This document shows positions 23,803 through 64,000 of a DNA stretch of 64,000 bases, piece by piece. Source of the stretch: Aquificota bacterium (GTDB taxonomy: Bacteria; Aquificota; Aquificia; Aquificales; Aquificaceae); the NCBI GenBank assembly GCA_018771605.1, contig CP076324.1:248001-312000 (forward strand), written 5' to 3'. Below the pieces are notes generated by a model. The model was not told where the DNA came from. It saw only the letters and a program-made list of their open reading frames with translations, and made no database searches. Position numbers and translations under genes: made by a program. Position 1 is the stretch's first letter, and the number at the start of each line of letters is the position of its first letter.

Positions 23803-23808
23803 TATAAT
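23803..23808 (+). promoter_or_regulatory. -10 box directly upstream of fliL
   Basis: A perfect TATAAT lies in the short gap between flgG and fliL, seven bases before the fliL ATG at 23816. If used, transcription would start on or next to the start codon, giving a leaderless fliL message. The AAGGAG overlapping the flgG stop (23791-23796) is too far upstream (20 bases) to serve as a normal ribosome binding site. Confidence 0.4.
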
Positions 23809-28385: not shown

Positions 28386-28405
28386 AAGTATATAATATAA
28401 ACCAC
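28386..28405. promoter_or_regulatory. 20-bp bidirectional promoter between fur-like and DUF192 genes
   Basis: The whole gap between two divergent ATGs is 20 bp. It contains TATAAT on the plus strand (28391-28396), nine bases before the DUF192 ATG. Its near-symmetric complement gives TATATT/TATTAT on the minus strand, six to eight bases before the regulator ATG. Neither start has a Shine-Dalgarno site, so both messages would be leaderless or nearly so. Confidence 0.55.
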
Positions 28406-28783
28406 ATGCTAATAATTTTCAATATCATACTCTCTTTCCTTGCTTTGGCTAAGGATATGCAATTTCCTACTTGCAGGCTCATGGTGGCAGACACACAAGA
28501 GGAACGAGAAAAGGGCCTTATGGGGTATAGGTACCTTGTGGGTTATGATGGTATGGTTTTTGTTTATAAAGACAAAAGGATAAGGCATTTTTGGAACAAG
28601 AACACCTACCTTGAGCTTGATCTGTACTGGATTGAGGGTAATAAGCTTGTAGGAAGGTCCTATCTTCCACCGGTGGATAAGGCTGGAATAGTAATAGTTT
28701 CTTCTCCAAAGCCTGTGGATGCTGTTGTGGAGCTTATTAAGGACAGGAGGTGTGTTTATAAGGGTATATTGCTTTCACCTTAG
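28406..28783 (+). CDS. DUF192 family secreted protein
   Basis: A 125-residue protein with an N-terminal signal peptide (about residues 1-15, ending FLALAK) and the DUF192 core: [47 protein letters not shown] and a closing [15 protein letters not shown]. The family is small, beta-rich and of unknown function. It is divergent from the Fur-family gene, and its last 9 bp overlap the 3' end of mraY on the other strand. Confidence 0.88.
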
Positions 28784-35502: not shown

Positions 35503-35521
35503 CAAGGTTTATATTATAACT
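35503..35521. promoter_or_regulatory. 19-bp bidirectional promoter between pdxJ and the gene at 35522
   Basis: The gap contains TATAAT on the minus strand, ten bases before the pdxJ ATG. On the plus strand TATATT (35510-35515) lies six bases before the ATG at 35522. Neither gene has a Shine-Dalgarno site. The same arrangement occurs at 28386, 56698 and 62054. Confidence 0.5.
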
Positions 35522-36400
35522 ATGCTGGAGATAAAGGAAAGGGACCCCTTAAGCAACCTGCTTTTGGAGGTGTTGGAAGACCCATCAAAAAAGGAGATGG
35601 TCTATTACCTTATGTGCTACCTACAACTTGTTAGAAGGGAGGATAGCTTTCATGTAGAGTTGAACAGGTTTCTTTCTTGTGCCTATAGGAACTTTCAAAA
35701 GGCAAGAAGTTATTGGAAGGACCTTTTGGTTGGCATGAACATATTTGTTATATCCGACTTATATGGCAACGTGTATATGGGCAAGGATATATACAAAGTG
35801 GAAGAAGGAGGGATATACCTTATAAGCCTTAGGCATGAATACCTGAATCAAATTGAAGATATAGGCCATAAAGCCCTAAAGCTATGGAATATACTTAGCA
35901 GGGCTATGATATACAGAAGGTATATGACTGCACAAGATGCAGTAGTAATATCCACGCTTATGTTTAACGAAGGCCTTTACCAAGAGGTGAAAAATTACTG
36001 TGAAGTATGCGTTGAAAGGTACACCTCTGAAGCTCCGTATTTTAGAGTTTTGGACAGGCTTTCCAGCCTTTATATTGAAAAATTAAACACAATTGCTGTT
36101 TTAAAAGAATTGGTGCGGGACCTTGAGGATCTGGGGAATGTTTTTTATAGCATAAACATACTAAAGCTTAGGAAAGATGTGGAAAATATGCTAAGAAGGG
36201 TTGAAAAAGGTCAAAGTATAGGTCCAATAAAGATTGAGTTTGTAAAGCATATGGACAGAGGGGGAAACTGGTTCGGTAGGATATTTGGTAGTCTTAAAAG
36301 ATTTGCAAGTAAAATATTCAAAAGGAGGGATAATAACCTTTATTCCTTTGAGGAAGCCTTATGTTCAAAGAGTTTTCGGACCCAATACATCAGCTTATAA
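35522..36400 (+). CDS. Hypothetical protein upstream of HD hydrolase
   Basis: A 292-residue, mostly helical soluble protein with no recognised domain. It begins MLEIKERDPLSNLLLEVLED. The C-terminal region is basic (FGSLKRFASKIFKRRDNN). There is no signal peptide or membrane helix. Its last 40 bp overlap the start of the HD-domain hydrolase, so the two are translated together and may work together. It starts directly after a shared divergent promoter with pdxJ. Confidence 0.65.
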   Translation: MLEIKERDPLSNLLLEVLEDPSKKEMVYYLMCYLQLVRREDSFHVELNRFLSCAYRNFQKARSYWKDLLVGMNIFVISDLYGNVYMGKDIYKVEEGGIYLISLRHEYLNQIEDIGHKALKLWNILSRAMIYRRYMTAQDAVVISTLMFNEGLYQEVKNYCEVCVERYTSEAPYFRVLDRLSSLYIEKLNTIAVLKELVRDLEDLGNVFYSINILKLRKDVENMLRRVEKGQSIGPIKIEFVKHMDRGGNWFGRIFGSLKRFASKIFKRRDNNLYSFEEALCSKSFRTQYISL

Positions 36401-41671: not shown

Positions 41672-43177
41672 TCAAAAATAGCCCGTGCTTTCACACAGAC
41701 CACCGCCCCCGCCCCCTGAAGCGGGAACTTGCGCCCTTCTCGGGTCTCCCCACAAGCCCCGAAAGAGAATATCTTTCAGGACAGAGAGGTCCCTTAGGAC
41801 CTTCTCAGGGGAGAGTGCAGTCAGCACCACTACCTTGAGAACTTGCCATGGATTAAATCGGATACCTAAGCTTGTTCCTTCCAGAGGCTCAGATACCCTC
41901 CATGACTCACTCTCAAGGCTTAAAGACTTTATTAATGCTTCTATTTCTTTCATATGCTTGACCTTCAAATAGGCATTCTTTACTTTCTCTTTTACATATT
42001 CTTTTAGCTCCTTTAATTCCTCTACGCTTAGCCTTTTTATAAGCTCCATATAATTCTTTGGCACTTTTTCTTTTAGCCCTAAGCCTTTTCTTGCTATCAC
42101 ATAGGCACTTGCTACATCCTTGCTTACCATGTATTGTGGTGCATACTTTAACATGCCTATGATGGATGTGTAGGCTGGATTTACTTCTATCACTTCTATG
42201 CCATTCCTTTTTGCAAGTAGCTTTATCCTTTCTAATAGCTTTCTGTAAGCAAAGTTATGCCTTATCCTTCTTGAAAGCCTCCCAGAATAATCTCCTTTTT
42301 TTCCTTTGTCTTTTATCCTTAACTTCTCTATAACTATTGCCTTTCCTTTCTCTTTGGCTAAGCTTATAACCTTATGTGCGTATATCCATGTGTAGTAGTC
42401 TCTCTTGTTGCTATTACCACTTGATAGCTCTGGCATAGGCACCTCACCATAGCTTGTAAGGTTTCCACACTCATCCGTTTCTACCCAAGCTATGTGGTTT
42501 GGATAGGCGTTTAGGTCTATGCCTATTACTCCATAATCCTTTGTAATCTCTATCTGTGGATATTCCTCTTCTGCGGTAAAGTAAGCATACACATTGCCGT
42601 CTCTTAGCTTTAGTTCTACAGAATAAGCCTTTCCAGAAAAGGCTATCTCTTTGATCTTCTCTATCCTATCCCCTGCACTTATTAAGGCATAAACATATTG
42701 CCTCTCTCCTGTGGTTATCCTCAAGTATGTCCCATTTTCCTTTACCTCTATCCTTGTGTTTTGATTGCCTTTACAATTTGCTTCTCCTATGGAGTATAGA
42801 TTGCCTTTTCTCCTCTCTTGGAATTGGACTTTTAACCTTTGATAATCTTTCCCATTTATGTGTCTTTTCTGTAGTTTTCTAAAAATATCTCTTCCACCAA
42901 ATATAACCTTTTTTAAGCTTTCTCCTTTTTCTTTTCTTACTTTCATAAAGGCTTGTGCTTTAACAATGGCTGAGTGTGAGTATCTGGCGTTAAGTCCAAA
43001 CATACTTTGAATTAACTTTCTTAAAGTGTTTATATCCATGCCTTCCAGAAGTCTTTTGTAAGCATATCTCATGGCTGAAGACCATCTTCTCATGAGGTTT
43101 AGGACCTTTTCCTTGTCTTGATAGTTTGAGAATAAAAGCTTAGCGCTTATGGTTATCATCTTTTGGTATTTTAACAT
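41672..43177 (-). CDS. TnpB-like protein without zinc finger (IS200/IS605-type)
   Basis: A 501-residue RuvC-like nuclease homologue. RuvC-I is GVIGIDLNAYPNHIAW, RuvC-II is AIVIEKLRIKDKGKK and RuvC-III is SKDVASAYVIARKGLG, so all three acidic residues are present. Between II and III the usual CXXC...CXXC finger is missing: NPAYTS runs into IIGMLKYAPQYM. The C-terminal tail GDPRRAQVPASGGGGG is typical of TnpB proteins whose 3' end overlaps the guide-RNA scaffold. ATG 43177 is preferred over the extended frame (to 43309). No TnpA partner of the HUH type is adjacent. It may be an RNA-guided nuclease. Confidence 0.8.
   Translation of the reverse strand: MLKYQKMITISAKLLFSNYQDKEKVLNLMRRWSSAMRYAYKRLLEGMDINTLRKLIQSMFGLNARYSHSAIVKAQAFMKVRKEKGESLKKVIFGGRDIFRKLQKRHINGKDYQRLKVQFQERRKGNLYSIGEANCKGNQNTRIEVKENGTYLRITTGERQYVYALISAGDRIEKIKEIAFSGKAYSVELKLRDGNVYAYFTAEEEYPQIEITKDYGVIGIDLNAYPNHIAWVETDECGNLTSYGEVPMPELSSGNSNKRDYYTWIYAHKVISLAKEKGKAIVIEKLRIKDKGKKGDYSGRLSRRIRHNFAYRKLLERIKLLAKRNGIEVIEVNPAYTSIIGMLKYAPQYMVSKDVASAYVIARKGLGLKEKVPKNYMELIKRLSVEELKELKEYVKEKVKNAYLKVKHMKEIEALIKSLSLESESWRVSEPLEGTSLGIRFNPWQVLKVVVLTALSPEKVLRDLSVLKDILFRGLWGDPRRAQVPASGGGGGGLCESTGYF
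41700..41775 (-). ncRNA. Candidate omega-RNA 3' scaffold of the TnpB-like element
   Basis: On the minus strand the end of the TnpB-like gene becomes very G/C-rich and can fold as CCCGC-TTCAGGG-GCGGG after GGGAGACCCGAG-like pairing. TnpB guide RNAs normally overlap the 3' end of tnpB and end in such a hairpin at the element boundary. The guide would then be the flanking sequence just below about 41705. Boundaries are a guess. Confidence 0.35.
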
Positions 43178-43273
43178 AACCGGTAGGTTAAGTGGATTTT
43201 TGGAACAGCCTCTATAGACCCTGCCATAGCCTATGAGAAGGGGGTATAAAAGAAGAAAGGCCTTAGCCAAGGT

Positions 43274-43338
43274 GGGGAGAGTTCCCCTCCACATAGACAG
43301 ATATTCCACTGCCTATGTGCACCTAACTTAGTGTTAGG
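43274..43338. repeat. Cluster of three hairpins between the two TnpB-type genes
   Basis: GGGGA/TCCCC with loop GAGT (43274-43287), CACATAG/CTATGTG with a 16-bp loop (43290-43319), and CCTAAC/GTTAGG with a 5-bp loop (43322-43338, over the stop of the IS607 tnpB). Subterminal hairpins are usual at ends of IS200/IS605 elements and in TnpB guide RNAs. The boundary of the two elements is probably here, but neither end can be fixed by eye. Confidence 0.6.
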
Positions 43339-44834
43339 TCCTGCCGAGGGTTTAGGATATCCTCAAGGAACTCCTTGTAATAAGGATTTCCCTTGAGAAT
43401 ATCCAGGGGAGCACTCTTACACCCCTTTAGTCTCTCAAGGTGCCTCTTAATCAACACCTTAAGGAGTTGCTTTTTCGGCAGATTTAGATTAAACTCCCTG
43501 AGAGAACTTCTCTCAAGGAGATTTTTAGCACTATTCACTTGTGCATTTATCTTCTTACCACAAAATTTACACTCAAATTCTTGCGTACTTTTCCTATTCT
43601 TTTTATCTACATACCCACAACAACTACACTCCTGACTTGAATAAGCAGGATTAACTTCTACTATTTCTATACCATATAGCTGATGCAACCTCTCCAACTT
43701 CTCCTTTAAATAACGCTTACCAAAGTTTTGAATAAGCCTATTCATTCTCTTTGATAGTTCAGGACTTCTAAAGTCAAGCTTTTCTACAATAATCATCTTT
43801 GGCTTGTAAAGGTTAACAAGTCTATTCAACAGTCTATTTATTTCGTTCTTAAGAAACTCCCTCAACTTTTTCACATACTTTCTATACTTACTATCTCGAC
43901 TTAGTAACCCTTCATTCCTTTGAATATAAGCCATCCGTTTAACAATTTTCTCATCCATCTTCTTTAGAAAATCAAAAAATTGCCTGCCCATTAACTCTCC
44001 AGTGTTTGTAGCAATCAATGGATTTAGCCCTAAATCTATAGCTACTTTTTCCGTTAACGGTATGTATTCTCTCTTCTTTAACTGCTTCACTATTCTAAAC
44101 TCTATATTCCCAGTATCATCCTCAACCACTTGACAATAATTTAAAAACTCCCCCTCTACCTTCTCTGCATATGTATTTGCTCTAAGAGGCATATAGACTG
44201 GTTTTCCTTTTTCTAATGTAGCAACCTTTATCCAATAATCGAAAGATTTAGCACCATTTTCCTTCTTTTTACTTATCTCTACAACCTTCCCGTCTAAATG
44301 CATTGAAATATTCTCAAACCGGGGCTTCCTATTCTTCTTGAGCAAATGCTTAAATATCTTTTTTGCCAATTTCTTGTGAAACTCTGAAACCTTAACTATC
44401 TTTTTCTCCAACCCATTATCTCTTCTATCATAAACCTCTATCTCATCGTTATCATAGATAAGCCAACCCTTTACATTATTAAGTGCAAGCAAAATTAATT
44501 TATCCTCTCTCCTTAAACTCGAATTAAACACAATGTTAGCAAATTGTCGTTGAATGTTAGCTATATACCCTGCTAATATACTATACACTTGCCATAAACA
44601 CACATACTTATAGCGTTCTGATAACTGGCTTGGAATGTGCTTGATATTCAGAGACTTTCTATGCGGAAGCCTTCCAAAACGAAAGAACTGGTTCCAAAGA
44701 TATTCCGATATATCCTCAGCTGTTTTTCTGTATTCTTTTAAAACCCTTCTAACTTTTTCCAGTTTACCCTTATTTGCATAATTCACAAACAAATAAGAAC
44801 CAAATATTCTGTCTTCACTAACTTCACTCATCAT
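43323..44834 (-). CDS. tnpB: IS607 TnpB with altered RuvC-III motif
   Basis: A 503-residue TnpB-family protein. RuvC-I is KVAIDLGLNP (D267), RuvC-II is IIVEKLDFRS (E351). A full zinc finger follows: CSCC at 403-406 and CKFC at 422-425. In RuvC-III the family normally reads A-D-x-N-A-A-x-N; here it is NAQVNSAKN, with Gln432 (codon CAA) in place of the catalytic Asp. The protein may therefore bind guide RNA and DNA without cutting, unless another acidic residue substitutes. It overlaps the serine recombinase gene by 11 bp, forming an IS607-type pair. No stop or frameshift is present. Confidence 0.85.
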   Translation of the reverse strand: MMSEVSEDRIFGSYLFVNYANKGKLEKVRRVLKEYRKTAEDISEYLWNQFFRFGRLPHRKSLNIKHIPSQLSERYKYVCLWQVYSILAGYIANIQRQFANIVFNSSLRREDKLILLALNNVKGWLIYDNDEIEVYDRRDNGLEKKIVKVSEFHKKLAKKIFKHLLKKNRKPRFENISMHLDGKVVEISKKKENGAKSFDYWIKVATLEKGKPVYMPLRANTYAEKVEGEFLNYCQVVEDDTGNIEFRIVKQLKKREYIPLTEKVAIDLGLNPLIATNTGELMGRQFFDFLKKMDEKIVKRMAYIQRNEGLLSRDSKYRKYVKKLREFLKNEINRLLNRLVNLYKPKMIIVEKLDFRSPELSKRMNRLIQNFGKRYLKEKLERLHQLYGIEIVEVNPAYSSQECSCCGYVDKKNRKSTQEFECKFCGKKINAQVNSAKNLLERSSLREFNLNLPKKQLLKVLIKRHLERLKGCKSAPLDILKGNPYYKEFLEDILNPRQDLTLS

Positions 44835-45411
44835 CTTGAATTACCCTCATTATCTCCTCTGTTTTTTTCTTTGCTCTTCTAAGTCCATATAACCTTGCTG
44901 AAAAGCTATAAACTATTGAAACCAAATCCTGTATCAAATCTGTTTTATCATCATCCGCTTCATTTACTATTTCAATCCTTCTACCAGTGCTTTCAAGCCA
45001 TCCTTTGATGTAAGTAAAACCAAATCTTGTAAGCCTATCCTTATGTTCCACAAGTAGAATTTTATAATCATTTTGATTAAGTAGCTTCATTAATTTAGGT
45101 CTTGCATCATTAACGCCTGACCCTATTTCCTTTACAACATGCTTTATATGATATCCTCTCGCTACAGCATACTCCTTCAACCTCTCAGCCTGCCTTTCTA
45201 AATTATCCTTACTTGCATGATCCGATACTCTACAATAAATCGCAACTGTATTATCATCGCTAATTATGTTTTTATTAACACAATCATCCTCTAAAACTAT
45301 AATACTTCCCGTAGGCAACTTTACAGCATTTGGAATTTGCCCTTTTCGATACATCCTCCAAGCTGTCTTATAGCTTATCCCTAATTTCTTTGCCCACTGT
45401 GATAACTTCAT
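44824..45411 (-). CDS. tnpA: IS607-family serine recombinase TnpA
   Basis: A 195-residue protein. An N-terminal MerR-like helix-turn-helix (MKLSQWAKKLGISYKTAWRMYRKGQIP) precedes a serine recombinase domain with VAIYCRVSD, holding the nucleophilic Ser, then ERQAERLKEYA and LLVEHKDRLTRFGF. This order, DNA-binding domain first, is that of IS607 transposases, which recombine at short core dinucleotides without target duplication. The frame extends upstream to 45459, but MKLSQW at 45411 is the natural start. It is translated just ahead of tnpB. Confidence 0.92.
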   Translation of the reverse strand: MKLSQWAKKLGISYKTAWRMYRKGQIPNAVKLPTGSIIVLEDDCVNKNIISDDNTVAIYCRVSDHASKDNLERQAERLKEYAVARGYHIKHVVKEIGSGVNDARPKLMKLLNQNDYKILLVEHKDRLTRFGFTYIKGWLESTGRRIEIVNEADDDKTDLIQDLVSIVYSFSARLYGLRRAKKKTEEIMRVIQDDE

Positions 45412-45494
45412 AAGAACAATGTAAAACAAAAAGGAAAATTTGTCAATAGATTTACCCAAAAGGACATTAAATTAAAAACAAATTTCAAGACCTT

Positions 45495-56697: not shown

Positions 56698-56715
56698 AGA
56701 ATTTAATATTAAGCT
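56698..56715. promoter_or_regulatory. 18-bp bidirectional promoter between prfB and rimI-like genes
   Basis: The gap contains the perfect palindrome TTAATATTAA. It gives TAATAT on both strands, six bases before the acetyltransferase ATG and eight bases before the prfB ATG. There is no Shine-Dalgarno sequence for either, so leaderless transcripts in both directions are likely. Confidence 0.5.
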
Positions 56716-59062: not shown

Positions 59063-59068
59063 TATAAT
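59063..59068 (+). promoter_or_regulatory. -10 box directly upstream of moxR
   Basis: A perfect TATAAT lies nine bases before the moxR ATG at 59078. There is no Shine-Dalgarno sequence, so a leaderless message is likely. No good -35 hexamer is seen. Confidence 0.5.
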
Positions 59069-60694: not shown

Positions 60695-61800
60695 TCCCTT
60701 ATCCTTCTGGCACCCTCTTGTAGGGTGCCCCCATCCTTAGCAAAGGATATCCTTATAAATTTATCTGTGTTGTTTTTACCAAAATCTATACCAGGTGTTA
60801 CAGCAACCTTGGCCTCCCTTAAAAGCTTCATGGAAAGCTCATAGCCACTCATTCCATATTTGCTTACATCTATCCAGAGATAAAAGGCTCCTTCGGGATA
60901 AACATCTATTTTCCCTACACCATCAAGCTCTTTTATCAAAAGGTCCCTCCTTTTCTTGTATGTTTCTCTTACTTGTTCAAGATATTCATAGTCAAAGGCC
61001 TCAAGGGCTGCATACTGGCTTATTGTGGGTGCTGATATATAGAGGTTTTGGGATATTAACTCCGCTTTTCTTACAAGGTCCTCATCTGGCAGTATAAGCC
61101 AGCCAAGCCTAAAGCCCGGCATACAAAAGGCCTTTGAGAAACCATTTATTACTATGGCCCTTTGGCTAAATTCAAGGGCAGTTCTTTCTTTTCTATCGTA
61201 TACAAGCCCATGATAGATCTCATCAGATATTAGGTATACGCCTTTTTCATCGCAAAACTGACAGAGAGCTTTTAAATTCTCTTCTTTATAAAGGTTCCCA
61301 GTAGGGTTGGATGGGCTGGAGATCTGTATAGCCTTAAAACCCTTTATGTCTATAAGATGGTCTGGAGTTATCTGGTAGTTTGTGCTGTGGTCCACATTGA
61401 CCATTAGAGGTTCAATATCCAATATATGCGCAAAGTTCTTGTAGCAGGGATAAGAAGGGTCGGAAAGCACTATCTTATCTCCAAAATCCAACAGTAAGGC
61501 ATAGGCTATTAAAAAGGCGGCAGAAGTGCCGGTTGTTATTATTATCCTTGAAGGAGATACCTCCACACCATAATAGTCATAATAATGCTTGGCTATCCTT
61601 TCCCTTAGCTCCCAAAGGCCAAGGCTTGGAGTATAGGAAAAGTTCCTATCTTTTATAATCCTTTCCAAAGCTTCAATAACCTTCGGTGATGGCTCAAGGT
61701 CTGGTTCGCCTATTTCCATATGTACCACATCTTTGATATTTTGGGCCTCTTTGAGTATATCCATAACAAGAAAAGGGCTTATCTTTTCAACCCTTCTCAT
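60679..61800 (-). CDS. Class I/II PLP aminotransferase (aspartate aminotransferase type)
   Basis: A 373-residue fold type I aminotransferase. It has MEIGEPDLEPSPKVIEAL near the start, ITTGTSAAFLIAYALLLDFGD, the substrate/PLP region IQISSPSNPTGNLY with LISDEIYHGLVYD, and the Schiff-base lysine in VINGFSKAFCMPGFRLGW. The Arg for the substrate carboxylate is in KFIRISFA. Subgroup is close to aspartate/aromatic aminotransferases, but the amino acid used cannot be fixed. Its 3' end overlaps the OmpA-family gene by 16 bp, convergently; its start overlaps the FlgJ-like gene by 14 bp. Confidence 0.9.
   Translation of the reverse strand: MRRVEKISPFLVMDILKEAQNIKDVVHMEIGEPDLEPSPKVIEALERIIKDRNFSYTPSLGLWELRERIAKHYYDYYGVEVSPSRIIITTGTSAAFLIAYALLLDFGDKIVLSDPSYPCYKNFAHILDIEPLMVNVDHSTNYQITPDHLIDIKGFKAIQISSPSNPTGNLYKEENLKALCQFCDEKGVYLISDEIYHGLVYDRKERTALEFSQRAIVINGFSKAFCMPGFRLGWLILPDEDLVRKAELISQNLYISAPTISQYAALEAFDYEYLEQVRETYKKRRDLLIKELDGVGKIDVYPEGAFYLWIDVSKYGMSGYELSMKLLREAKVAVTPGIDFGKNNTDKFIRISFAKDGGTLQEGARRIRDYLTR
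60709..60729. terminator. Hairpin after the OmpA-family gene, inside the aminotransferase coding sequence
   Basis: GGCACCC (60709-60715) pairs exactly with GGGTGCC (60723-60729) around a 7-nt loop, 15 bp after the OmpA stop. No T-run follows. It lies in the last codons of the converging aminotransferase (DGGTLQEGARR). It may stop or process the ompA message, or be fortuitous. Confidence 0.45.
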
Positions 61801-62053
61801 CTCTTATATTCTCCAAAATGAACTTGGCTATTCCAATACCACCTGCTTCTGCGAGCTTTTTACTTAAGCCTTCAAGGAAGTTATCATAGTATAGCTTTGT
61901 ATCAAAAGATTTATTTTGAAGCATTGGCTTAAAAGCCTCTTTGAGGACTTCCTTTAGAAGTATGGCTTCAAACTCTTTGGCTATATCTCTCTTGTCCCTT
62001 TTTACCAGTTCTGAGTATGTTAAACTTGGGTTTGAAAATAATACCTTATCCAT
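61787..62053 (-). CDS. FlgJ-like rod-binding protein, single domain
   Basis: An 88-residue protein matching the N-terminal rod-scaffolding domain of FlgJ: DIAKEFEAILLKEVLKEAFKPML, a short linker and YYDNFLEGLSKKLAEAGGIGIAKFIL. The C-terminal muramidase domain of proteobacterial FlgJ is missing, as in many other phyla. It would help the flagellar rod assemble in the periplasm. It is separated from the main flagellar cluster at 23012-27343. No ribosome binding site precedes its ATG, which follows a 15-bp divergent promoter. Confidence 0.8.
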   Translation of the reverse strand: MDKVLFSNPSLTYSELVKRDKRDIAKEFEAILLKEVLKEAFKPMLQNKSFDTKLYYDNFLEGLSKKLAEAGGIGIAKFILENIRDEKG

Positions 62054-62068
62054 TGTTAAAATTATAGC
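62054..62068. promoter_or_regulatory. 15-bp bidirectional promoter between flgJ-like and Omp85 genes
   Basis: The shortest divergent gap in the window. On the minus strand TATAAT ends seven bases before the FlgJ-like ATG. On the plus strand TAAAAT (62057-62062) lies six bases before the Omp85 ATG. Neither start has a Shine-Dalgarno site. Confidence 0.5.
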
Positions 62069-64000
62069 ATGCTCCTTATTCTGATTATGCTTCTCCCAAT
62101 AATTGCTTTTGGAGAGGTGGTCATAATATCTAACTTCCCATTAAGAAAGAGCAATCTTGAGAAGGTTATAAACCTTGAAAACTACAGAGATATGGTTGAA
62201 ATAATAAAACATGTAGATGATGTAAAGGATGTATATCTTATGGAGGAAGAGGGTAGGATAGTCATCTATATAGAGAGGTACCCTATTATAAGAAGGATAC
62301 ACATAAAAGGAAACATGGCAGTTGCAAAAGAAGAAATACTTTCTTACCTTGGCTTTTATGAGGGCATGCCTATCCGTGGACCAGAGTTTAATGAGATGGA
62401 CTTACAAACAAGGATAAAAAGGTTATACATGGACAAGGGATTTTTGGATGCATCCGTTGGTGTTACTATGGAAGAAGATAAGGATGGTTATGTGGACCTT
62501 TACATAGGGATAGATGAAGGTCCAATTTATTTTACAGAAAGTGGAGTGTATAAAGGTTCAAGCTACGACCCATCCCTTTTGGACTCAAAGATAGGCTTGG
62601 TTAAGGGTAGGGTTTTTAAGGAAGGTTTATTTAGAGAAAGTATATTCTCCCTTCAGGACTTTTATACAAAAGAAGGCTATTGGGACAGTTTTGTGTATTA
62701 TGAAGGCGTTGAAAAACTTAAACTAAGCAAGCCTTTTTACTCTGTGCTTGCTCCAATGGATAAAAGGCTTACCAAAAACCCGCTTAAGGTCCTTGGGTCT
62801 ATATCGGAGGGCATATCAAACCTTTTTAGCCATCCCATAGGAACATTAAAAGCTTTGATAGGTAGAGGTTATGTAGCCAGGCCTGTATTTCAGATAATTG
62901 AAGGGAAAAAGTATAAGCTCAGCTTTGAGGGTACAAGCTTTTTTACACAACAAGACCTAACCGACATAAGCGAGCTTGAAAAGAAAGGCGTTGATCCTTT
63001 TTCTTTGGAAGAGGCAAAAGAAAACATAATTAAAGCCTATCATAGAAAGGGCTTTTTTGATGTGGAGGTTTATTATGAAGTTAAGGAGGGACAGATAAGC
63101 TTTAGGGTAAAAGAAGGGGAAAGGTATAAGGCCGTAGGTACGGTGCTTGATGGAGAGTTTTACGATGAAGATAGGTTAGAACAATTGTTAAAAATGGAGC
63201 TTGAACGCCTTATGGAAGAAGGCTATACATTAGCGGAAGGACGAATAAACAAAGAAGTTTTTAAGGAGGAAAAGAAGGTAAAAGTTAGCTTGGATATAAA
63301 ACCTGGAAAAAGGCAAATACTTAAAGACTTTGTATATGACGGCCACAATCAAGAAATCAAAAAGATATTTTCAAGGCATGAAGAAAAACTTCCTGCCATA
63401 TTCAACTCACAACTTGTGGAGTCTTTAAACTTGAATATACAAAATTATTTTCTTAAAAAGGGTTTTATGGAAGGCGATTTTGAAACACAGGTAAAATTGG
63501 AAGAGGATGACAAAAACATCTATTACGCATACATATACACAGTAAATGAGGGGCCTGTTTATAAATTGGGAGAGACCATATACTATGGATACAAAAACAC
63601 CACTTCCCGTGAGCTTTCTTATATGACTGAAAAGGCAGTAAATTACTCTGAAAGTTTAAACGATAAAACATTACATAACATGTTGAATAGTGGAATATTT
63701 ACTGGTGTATATATAGATACTTTCGTTGATAAAAACAAAAAAACTGTACACAGGCTCATACAATTATCCGAAGACAAAAGAGGTATACTGGATTTTTCAT
63801 TAGGATACAATACAGAAGAAAAAATTTCCTTAGAGGCATTCCTTGGTATGAAAAATATCTTTGGAATAGGGCTGTCCTCGGGTTTAAAATACAGAAAAAC
63901 TGGTAAAAGAAAGCTTTATGATATAACACTTGAGGATAGGTTTATCTTTTCAAGTAGATACTGGTTTAAAGCCGACGCTTTCAAAAACTATGAAGAACAT
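62069..64000 (+). CDS. Omp85/BamA-TamA-type outer-membrane protein (runs off the window)
   Basis: An open frame of 644 codons to the window edge. A signal peptide (MLLILIMLLPIIAFG) is followed by POTRA-like repeats: YPIIRRIHIKGNMAVAKEEI with IKRLYMDKGFLDASV, then YKLSFEGTSFFTQQDL with AYHRKGFFDVEVYYEV, then ILKDFVYDGHNQEI with NYFLKKGFMEGDF. From about residue 570 the pattern (RGILDFSLGYNTEEKISLEAFLG) suggests the start of the beta barrel. It would insert or export outer-membrane proteins. BamA versus TamA cannot be decided from the visible part. Confidence 0.85.
   Translation, partial: MLLILIMLLPIIAFGEVVIISNFPLRKSNLEKVINLENYRDMVEIIKHVDDVKDVYLMEEEGRIVIYIERYPIIRRIHIKGNMAVAKEEILSYLGFYEGMPIRGPEFNEMDLQTRIKRLYMDKGFLDASVGVTMEEDKDGYVDLYIGIDEGPIYFTESGVYKGSSYDPSLLDSKIGLVKGRVFKEGLFRESIFSLQDFYTKEGYWDSFVYYEGVEKLKLSKPFYSVLAPMDKRLTKNPLKVLGSISEGISNLFSHPIGTLKALIGRGYVARPVFQIIEGKKYKLSFEGTSFFTQQDLTDISELEKKGVDPFSLEEAKENIIKAYHRKGFFDVEVYYEVKEGQISFRVKEGERYKAVGTVLDGEFYDEDRLEQLLKMELERLMEEGYTLAEGRINKEVFKEEKKVKVSLDIKPGKRQILKDFVYDGHNQEIKKIFSRHEEKLPAIFNSQLVESLNLNIQNYFLKKGFMEGDFETQVKLEEDDKNIYYAYIYTVNEGPVYKLGETIYYGYKNTTSRELSYMTEKAVNYSESLNDKTLHNMLNSGIFTGVYIDTFVDKNKKTVHRLIQLSEDKRGILDFSLGYNTEEKISLEAFLGMKNIFGIGLSSGLKYRKTGKRKLYDITLEDRFIFSSRYWFKADAFKNYEEH

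Follow-up and report, generated by a model that had tools for sequence, protein, structure and literature searches.

In the Aquificaceae genus analysed here, the 14–22 bp spacer between two divergent genes is very probably a minimal bidirectional promoter, in which overlapping, near-symmetric −10 elements give rise to leaderless mRNAs in both directions. The starting point was a stretch of 64,000 nucleotides (hereafter the window) taken from the complete 1.72 Mb genome of a heat-loving bacterium (G000:C1:248001-312000). One window protein has named relatives at 60–75% identity, and these come from Aquificaceae MAGs. Four divergent gaps of 15–20 bp had been singled out there by an initial annotation, and reading the sequence directly confirmed that each has the position and length given and lies between a CAT and an ATG. 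Every gap contains a near-palindromic box made of TAnnnT-type −10 hexamers, which overlap on opposite strands and lie 6–9 bp from their respective ATGs. As also claimed, a Shine–Dalgarno (SD) site is absent from all eight starts of the four pairs; the sole SD-like 4-mers among them, AAGG/AGGT at the gene starting at 35522, are too distant from the start codon.

Pair 1 consists of a gene for a Fur-family regulator (PF01475; 27957..28385, − strand) and one for a DUF192 protein (PF02643; 28406..28783, + strand), separated by 20 bp (28386..28405; AAGTATATAATATAAACCAC), and the entire spacer is the predicted promoter. The −10 hexamer of the DUF192 gene is TATAAT (28391..28396, +), 9 bp before the ATG; that of the fur-family gene is TATATT (28394..28399, −), 8 bp before the ATG, and TATTAT at 6 bp also fits. 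In pair 2, 19 bp (35503..35521; CAAGGTTTATATTATAACT) separate pdxJ (PF03740; 34774..35502, −) from a gene for an unknown protein of 292 aa with no Pfam match (35522..36400, +). TATATT precedes the latter gene (35510..35515, +; 6 bp before the ATG) and TAATAT precedes pdxJ (35511..35516, −; 8 bp), with TATAAT at 35513-35518, 10 bp from the ATG, as an alternative.

Pair 3 joins a peptide chain release factor gene (PF03462, PF00472; 55585..56697, −) to a GNAT acetyltransferase gene (PF00583; 56716..57198, +) across 18 bp (56698..56715; AGAATTTAATATTAAGCT). Both of its −10 hexamers read TAATAT, at 56704..56709 on the + strand, 6 bp before the GNAT ATG, and at 56706..56711 on the − strand, 8 bp before the release-factor ATG. 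The gap of pair 4 is only 15 bp long (62054..62068; TGTTAAAATTATAGC) and holds a 10-bp core, TAAAATTATA. To its left lies a gene for a small, rod-binding-like protein of 88 aa (61787..62053, −; a weak match to rod-binding PF10135, below the cut-off), and to its right a gene for a POTRA-domain, BamA-like protein (62069..64000, +) that continues past the window end. The former is preceded by TATAAT (62061..62066, −; 7 bp before the ATG), the latter by TAAAAT (62057..62062, +; 6 bp). One-sided versions of the box are likewise present where they had been proposed, TATAAT at 23803..23808 (+), 7 bp before the ATG of fliL (23816), and TATAAT at 59063..59068 (+), 9 bp before the ATG of moxR (59078).

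The initial annotation had hinged on an excess of such short divergent gaps across the genome. We therefore surveyed 844 kb of the genome, comprising the window and 39 spaced stretches of 20 kb. The gene caller used coding potential and start codon type only, without SD or promoter signals, so the called starts are uninfluenced by either. The starts rest on coding potential, and exact start codons may be off in some pairs; in the window, the caller set the start of one gene 18 bp downstream. Among 121 divergent pairs, none had a gap of 0–13 bp and 17 had a gap of 14–22 bp, with density dropping beyond. In a congener (G006, 400 kb), the gap was 14–22 bp in 14 of 54 divergent pairs. The genus total of 31/175, with no gap of 1–13 bp, compares with 0/80 in a sister family from the same order, represented by two genera (G020, G018; GC 33–34%; Fisher P = 5e-6), in which nearly all divergent gaps exceed 30–40 bp. 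The excess was thus found, and the idea survived. Two other Aquificaceae genera (G029, G025) were intermediate (5/55), and stretches of E. coli K-12 had none at 14–22 bp (0/23; minimum 44 bp). Extrapolation gives some 40 short divergent pairs per genome. On the Thermus plasmid pTT27, a leaderless-rich comparison, none of 16 pairs fell in this range (smallest gap 26 bp), so leaderless use alone may not suffice, the sample being small; Gemmatimonadota loci were uninformative as controls owing to high GC. Divergent gaps of 30–45 bp were often hybrid, one gene being leaderless and its partner carrying AGGAGG (for example, L064:16967-16998, L041:2337-2375 and L054:11491-11532), as if one side had kept or gained a leader.

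Placement of the −10 hexamers was examined in the 31 called short pairs together with the fourth pair of the window, for which the upstream ATG was taken (n = 32). TAnnnT occurred 6–9 bp from the ATG in 58 of 62 short-gap genes, and hexamers were correctly placed on both sides in 26/32 pairs, whereas 2000 shuffles averaged 1.6 such pairs and never gave more than 8. A −10 hexamer was found 5–10 bp before the ATG in 88% of short-gap genes and in 19% of tandem genes (gap <20 bp). SD matches of at least 4 bases had the opposite distribution (9% versus 64% of tandem genes with an upstream gap <20 bp), and matches of at least 5 bases were found at none of the 62 short-gap starts versus 34–41% of other genes. 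Only 1/62 short-gap genes had an SD-led alternative start within the first 24 codons (13–14% elsewhere), indicating that misplaced starts are not the reason for the absence of SD sites. Hexamers on both sides together with the missing SD sites support the earlier proposal of leaderless messages fired both ways, from a near-symmetric −10 region that is shared or overlapping.

It is hardly credible that these pairs are a product of chance, with A/T-rich gaps in a compact genome and start codons picked by the annotator so as to yield short gaps. TAnnnT is indeed common in A/T-rich spacers, and start calling is imperfect, as the gene misplaced by 18 bp illustrates. However, the sister family has lower GC and yet no such gaps, shuffling yields only 1.6 of 32 doubly matched pairs, starts were called blind to promoter and SD signals, and both the ATGs and the gap lengths are conserved in orthologues. 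A less remote but still improbable alternative is that the box drives one direction only, the other gene being transcribed from an upstream promoter inside its neighbour and having a normal leader that lacks an SD site. One-sided firing does exist in this genome, as in the hybrid 30–45 bp gaps, and 6/32 short pairs have no clear hexamer at 6–9 bp on one side. Against this, correctly placed hexamers point both ways in the other 26, SD sites are missing on both sides, and both sides are conserved in the orthologues of pairs 1 and 4.

The bidirectional reading raises the question of how symmetric the box is. A reverse hexamer overlapped the forward one in 54/58 short-gap genes (93%), against 41 under a column-shuffle null. 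By gene, the reverse hexamer was offset by +1 (TAnnnTA) in 30/58, +3 in 21/58 and +4 in 13/58, although many of these A/T-only cores can be read in more than one register and the assignment is ambiguous to that extent. TAnnnTA, the commonest single register, gives start sites 18 bp apart. The initial description of one symmetric −10 element is therefore literally correct in about half of the cases, those in this register; the others comprise two hexamers overlapping by 2–3 bp, as in TAAAATTTTA. Predicted start-site separations range from 13 to 21 bp in the 26 pairs and are mostly 15–18 bp. The three positions 3′ of the hexamer are mostly A/T, and a TGn before the −10 is found in 25% of one-sided leaderless promoters and 9% of short-gap ones. 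Of the one-sided leaderless promoters, ~60–66% have a reverse hexamer overlapping the forward one, roughly as their base composition predicts. The idea that symmetry is selected for in one-sided promoters was rejected, as counts barely exceeded those of column shuffles (88 versus 81; 39 versus 34). This agreement with column composition indicates that part of the palindromic look comes from the −10 consensus itself.

The further claim that −35 contacts lie inside the opposite coding sequence did not hold as a general feature. The sequence logo reached at most 0.18 bit there, TTG position profiles showed no peak, and TTGACA-like matches of at least 4/6 at 15–19 bp (24%) were little different from those at shifted positions (14–19%), so that none of the three measures supported such an element. 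Only the fur-family gene of pair 1 has a conserved −35-like element, TTGAAA-N17-TATATT, inside the opposite DUF192 gene: TTGAAA (28417..28422, −) lies within DUF192 codons 4–6, 17 bp from TATATT, and the third positions of these codons are invariant in 10 genomes. The first six DUF192 codons (28406-28423) are nearly invariant in DNA across the 10 genomes, including most synonymous positions, perhaps because they harbour the −35 of the fur-family gene on the other strand. Separately, 6/208 one-sided leaderless promoters of the two congeneric genomes have a TTGAC separated from the −10 by exactly 17 bp.

The gap of pair 1 is itself strongly conserved. Across ten genomes of the genus, its core reads CATATAATATA or TATATAATATA, followed mostly by AAACC, and in most of them the same two start codons are 20 bp apart. 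Of the 20 gap columns, 12 are invariant, versus 0/29 third codon positions of fur (mean identity 0.62). This conservation, which extends beyond the −10 elements, and the Fur-family product of pair 1 are what would be expected if the palindromic cores were operators for regulators, such as a Fur-family protein acting on its own promoter, and not promoter elements. As a general explanation this is very unlikely, because unrelated gene pairs whose flanks differ share this A/T core, which keeps a constant position relative to the ATG in hundreds of unrelated genes. At pair 1, an operator superimposed on the promoter is possible.

Conservation at the other pairs bears on the origin of the proposed bidirectional promoters. 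The 19 bp gap of pair 2 is kept in two loci (L146 and L150), and elsewhere pdxJ occurs without such a partner. Orthologues of pair 3 retain the release-factor box as TTATATTAAA or a close variant, at a nearly constant distance from the ATG, while the distance to the partner varies from 18 to about 410 bp. The core of pair 4 is kept with the partner at about 15–16 bp and, with small variants, also where the partner is missing (L205, L213-L216, L222). Retention of the box irrespective of the partner suggests that at pairs 3 and 4 a leaderless and already pseudo-symmetric promoter existed first, and that the partner's start codon came later.

Restriction of the arrangement to the family was also seen without gene calling. 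We counted the motif CAT-N6-TAWWWTA-N6-ATG in 81 whole genomes from the phylum and used the reversed pattern as a control. Sites outnumbered controls in the genus (29 versus 5) and in the other Aquificaceae genera (25 versus 5), amounting to 54 versus 10 in 40 Aquificaceae genomes, as against 14 versus 24 in the 41 genomes from other families. Not all of these sites are independent, since orthologous ones are found again in related genomes.

Short pairs are a consequence of a family-wide leaderless habit and are not peculiar to special loci. In the genus, −10 hexamers peak 6–9 bp before the ATG in tandem, divergent and within-operon genes. The sister family has no such peak; its −10 hexamers lie ~28–37 bp upstream, and about 67–72% of its genes have an SD site. 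Judged by −10 placement, the leaderless share is ~25% of genes in the genus and 18–22% in two other Aquificaceae genera, and it is 6%, equal to background, in the sister family. ATG use was equal in leaderless and SD genes. Among tandem genes with a gap <20 bp, 55/387 have a −10 hexamer 6–9 bp before the ATG (background ~2 per position), that is, leaderless promoters that sit within the last stretch of the preceding gene.

Based on this anatomy, RNA polymerase with the main sigma factor would bind the A/T-only, near-palindromic −10 region in either orientation, with the start point on, or 0–3 nt before, the A of the ATG in each case. Both mRNAs would be leaderless and would be translated without an SD site. 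Initiation in one direction should preclude initiation in the other, as the two −10 hexamers share 2–5 bp. The minimum of ~14 bp arises because the −10 plus 6–9 bp to each start codon must fit, and short pairs are possible because leaderless genes make up about a quarter of all genes in the genus. Such pairs would exploit promoters that are already pseudo-symmetric. We lean towards a broader view for Aquificaceae, in which the spacer is one symmetric, −35-less promoter for two mutually exclusive leaderless mRNAs, a standard gene-pair architecture that is close to the smallest divergent region and originated in the symmetry of leaderless promoters predating the partner.

Bidirectional promoters with symmetric −10 elements were reportedly described by Warman et al. 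in Nat Microbiol in 2021. The Aquificaceae spacers resemble such promoters of E. coli and Salmonella in their overlapping, opposite-strand −10 elements and weak or absent −35. Bidirectional promoters are defined by start sites 7–25 bp apart, most commonly 18 (PMC10268837, PMC12825309), which accommodates the 13–21 bp predicted here, and TAnnnTA, the E. coli optimum, is the commonest single register by gene here. As a difference, spacings of 15–16 bp are no rarer in Aquificaceae than the 18 bp spacing. Neither for E. coli nor for Salmonella are start codons described as coinciding with the start sites, and the word "leaderless" appears in neither PMC10268837 nor PMC12825309. In Aquificaceae, by contrast with the sampled E. 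coli gaps of at least 44 bp, both start codons lie at the predicted start sites, which makes the promoter the whole intergenic region. The abstract of PMC12825309 reports that steric exclusion limits E. coli bidirectional promoters, with no competition at low basal output; at the Aquificaceae spacers, the two orientations may compete.

TA-led (leaderless) genes make up 20.7–32.4% of genes in 2/5 Aquificae genomes (Zheng et al. 2011, PMC3160421). The ~25% of genes found here match these in having a TATAAT-like signal about 10–12 bp upstream and no SD site, but in that study the word "divergent" is absent, and symmetry and minimal intergenic distance are not treated. Ordinary back-to-back divergent promoters of compact genomes likewise transcribe two genes outward from one intergenic region; they differ in using two separate promoters and two SD leaders, a pattern that the sister-family and E. 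coli gaps fit. A literature search, with subscription papers mostly outside its reach, found no combination of leaderless and bidirectional promoters in Aquificota, nor minimal spacer fusion, its abundance, its family restriction or evidence of promoters preceding partners. Each ingredient was thus known on its own, leaderless genes in this phylum as well as bidirectional promoters with a symmetric −10, and their fusion into a minimal divergent spacer seems new and family-specific.

The spacers connect promoter symmetry with leaderless mRNAs, which have been studied separately, and symmetry here probably yields two useful messages instead of transcriptional noise. They form a natural genome-wide set in which the output of two housekeeping genes has to be determined by a single box of ~10 bp, so that competition between polymerase orientations becomes directly testable. 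Additionally, two contrasting families within one order offer a phylogenetic handle on the change between SD-led and leaderless initiation. Elsewhere in the window, several large open frames at 41672-45459 (e.g. 43323-44834) score weakly under the genome's own codon model and are possibly acquired DNA.
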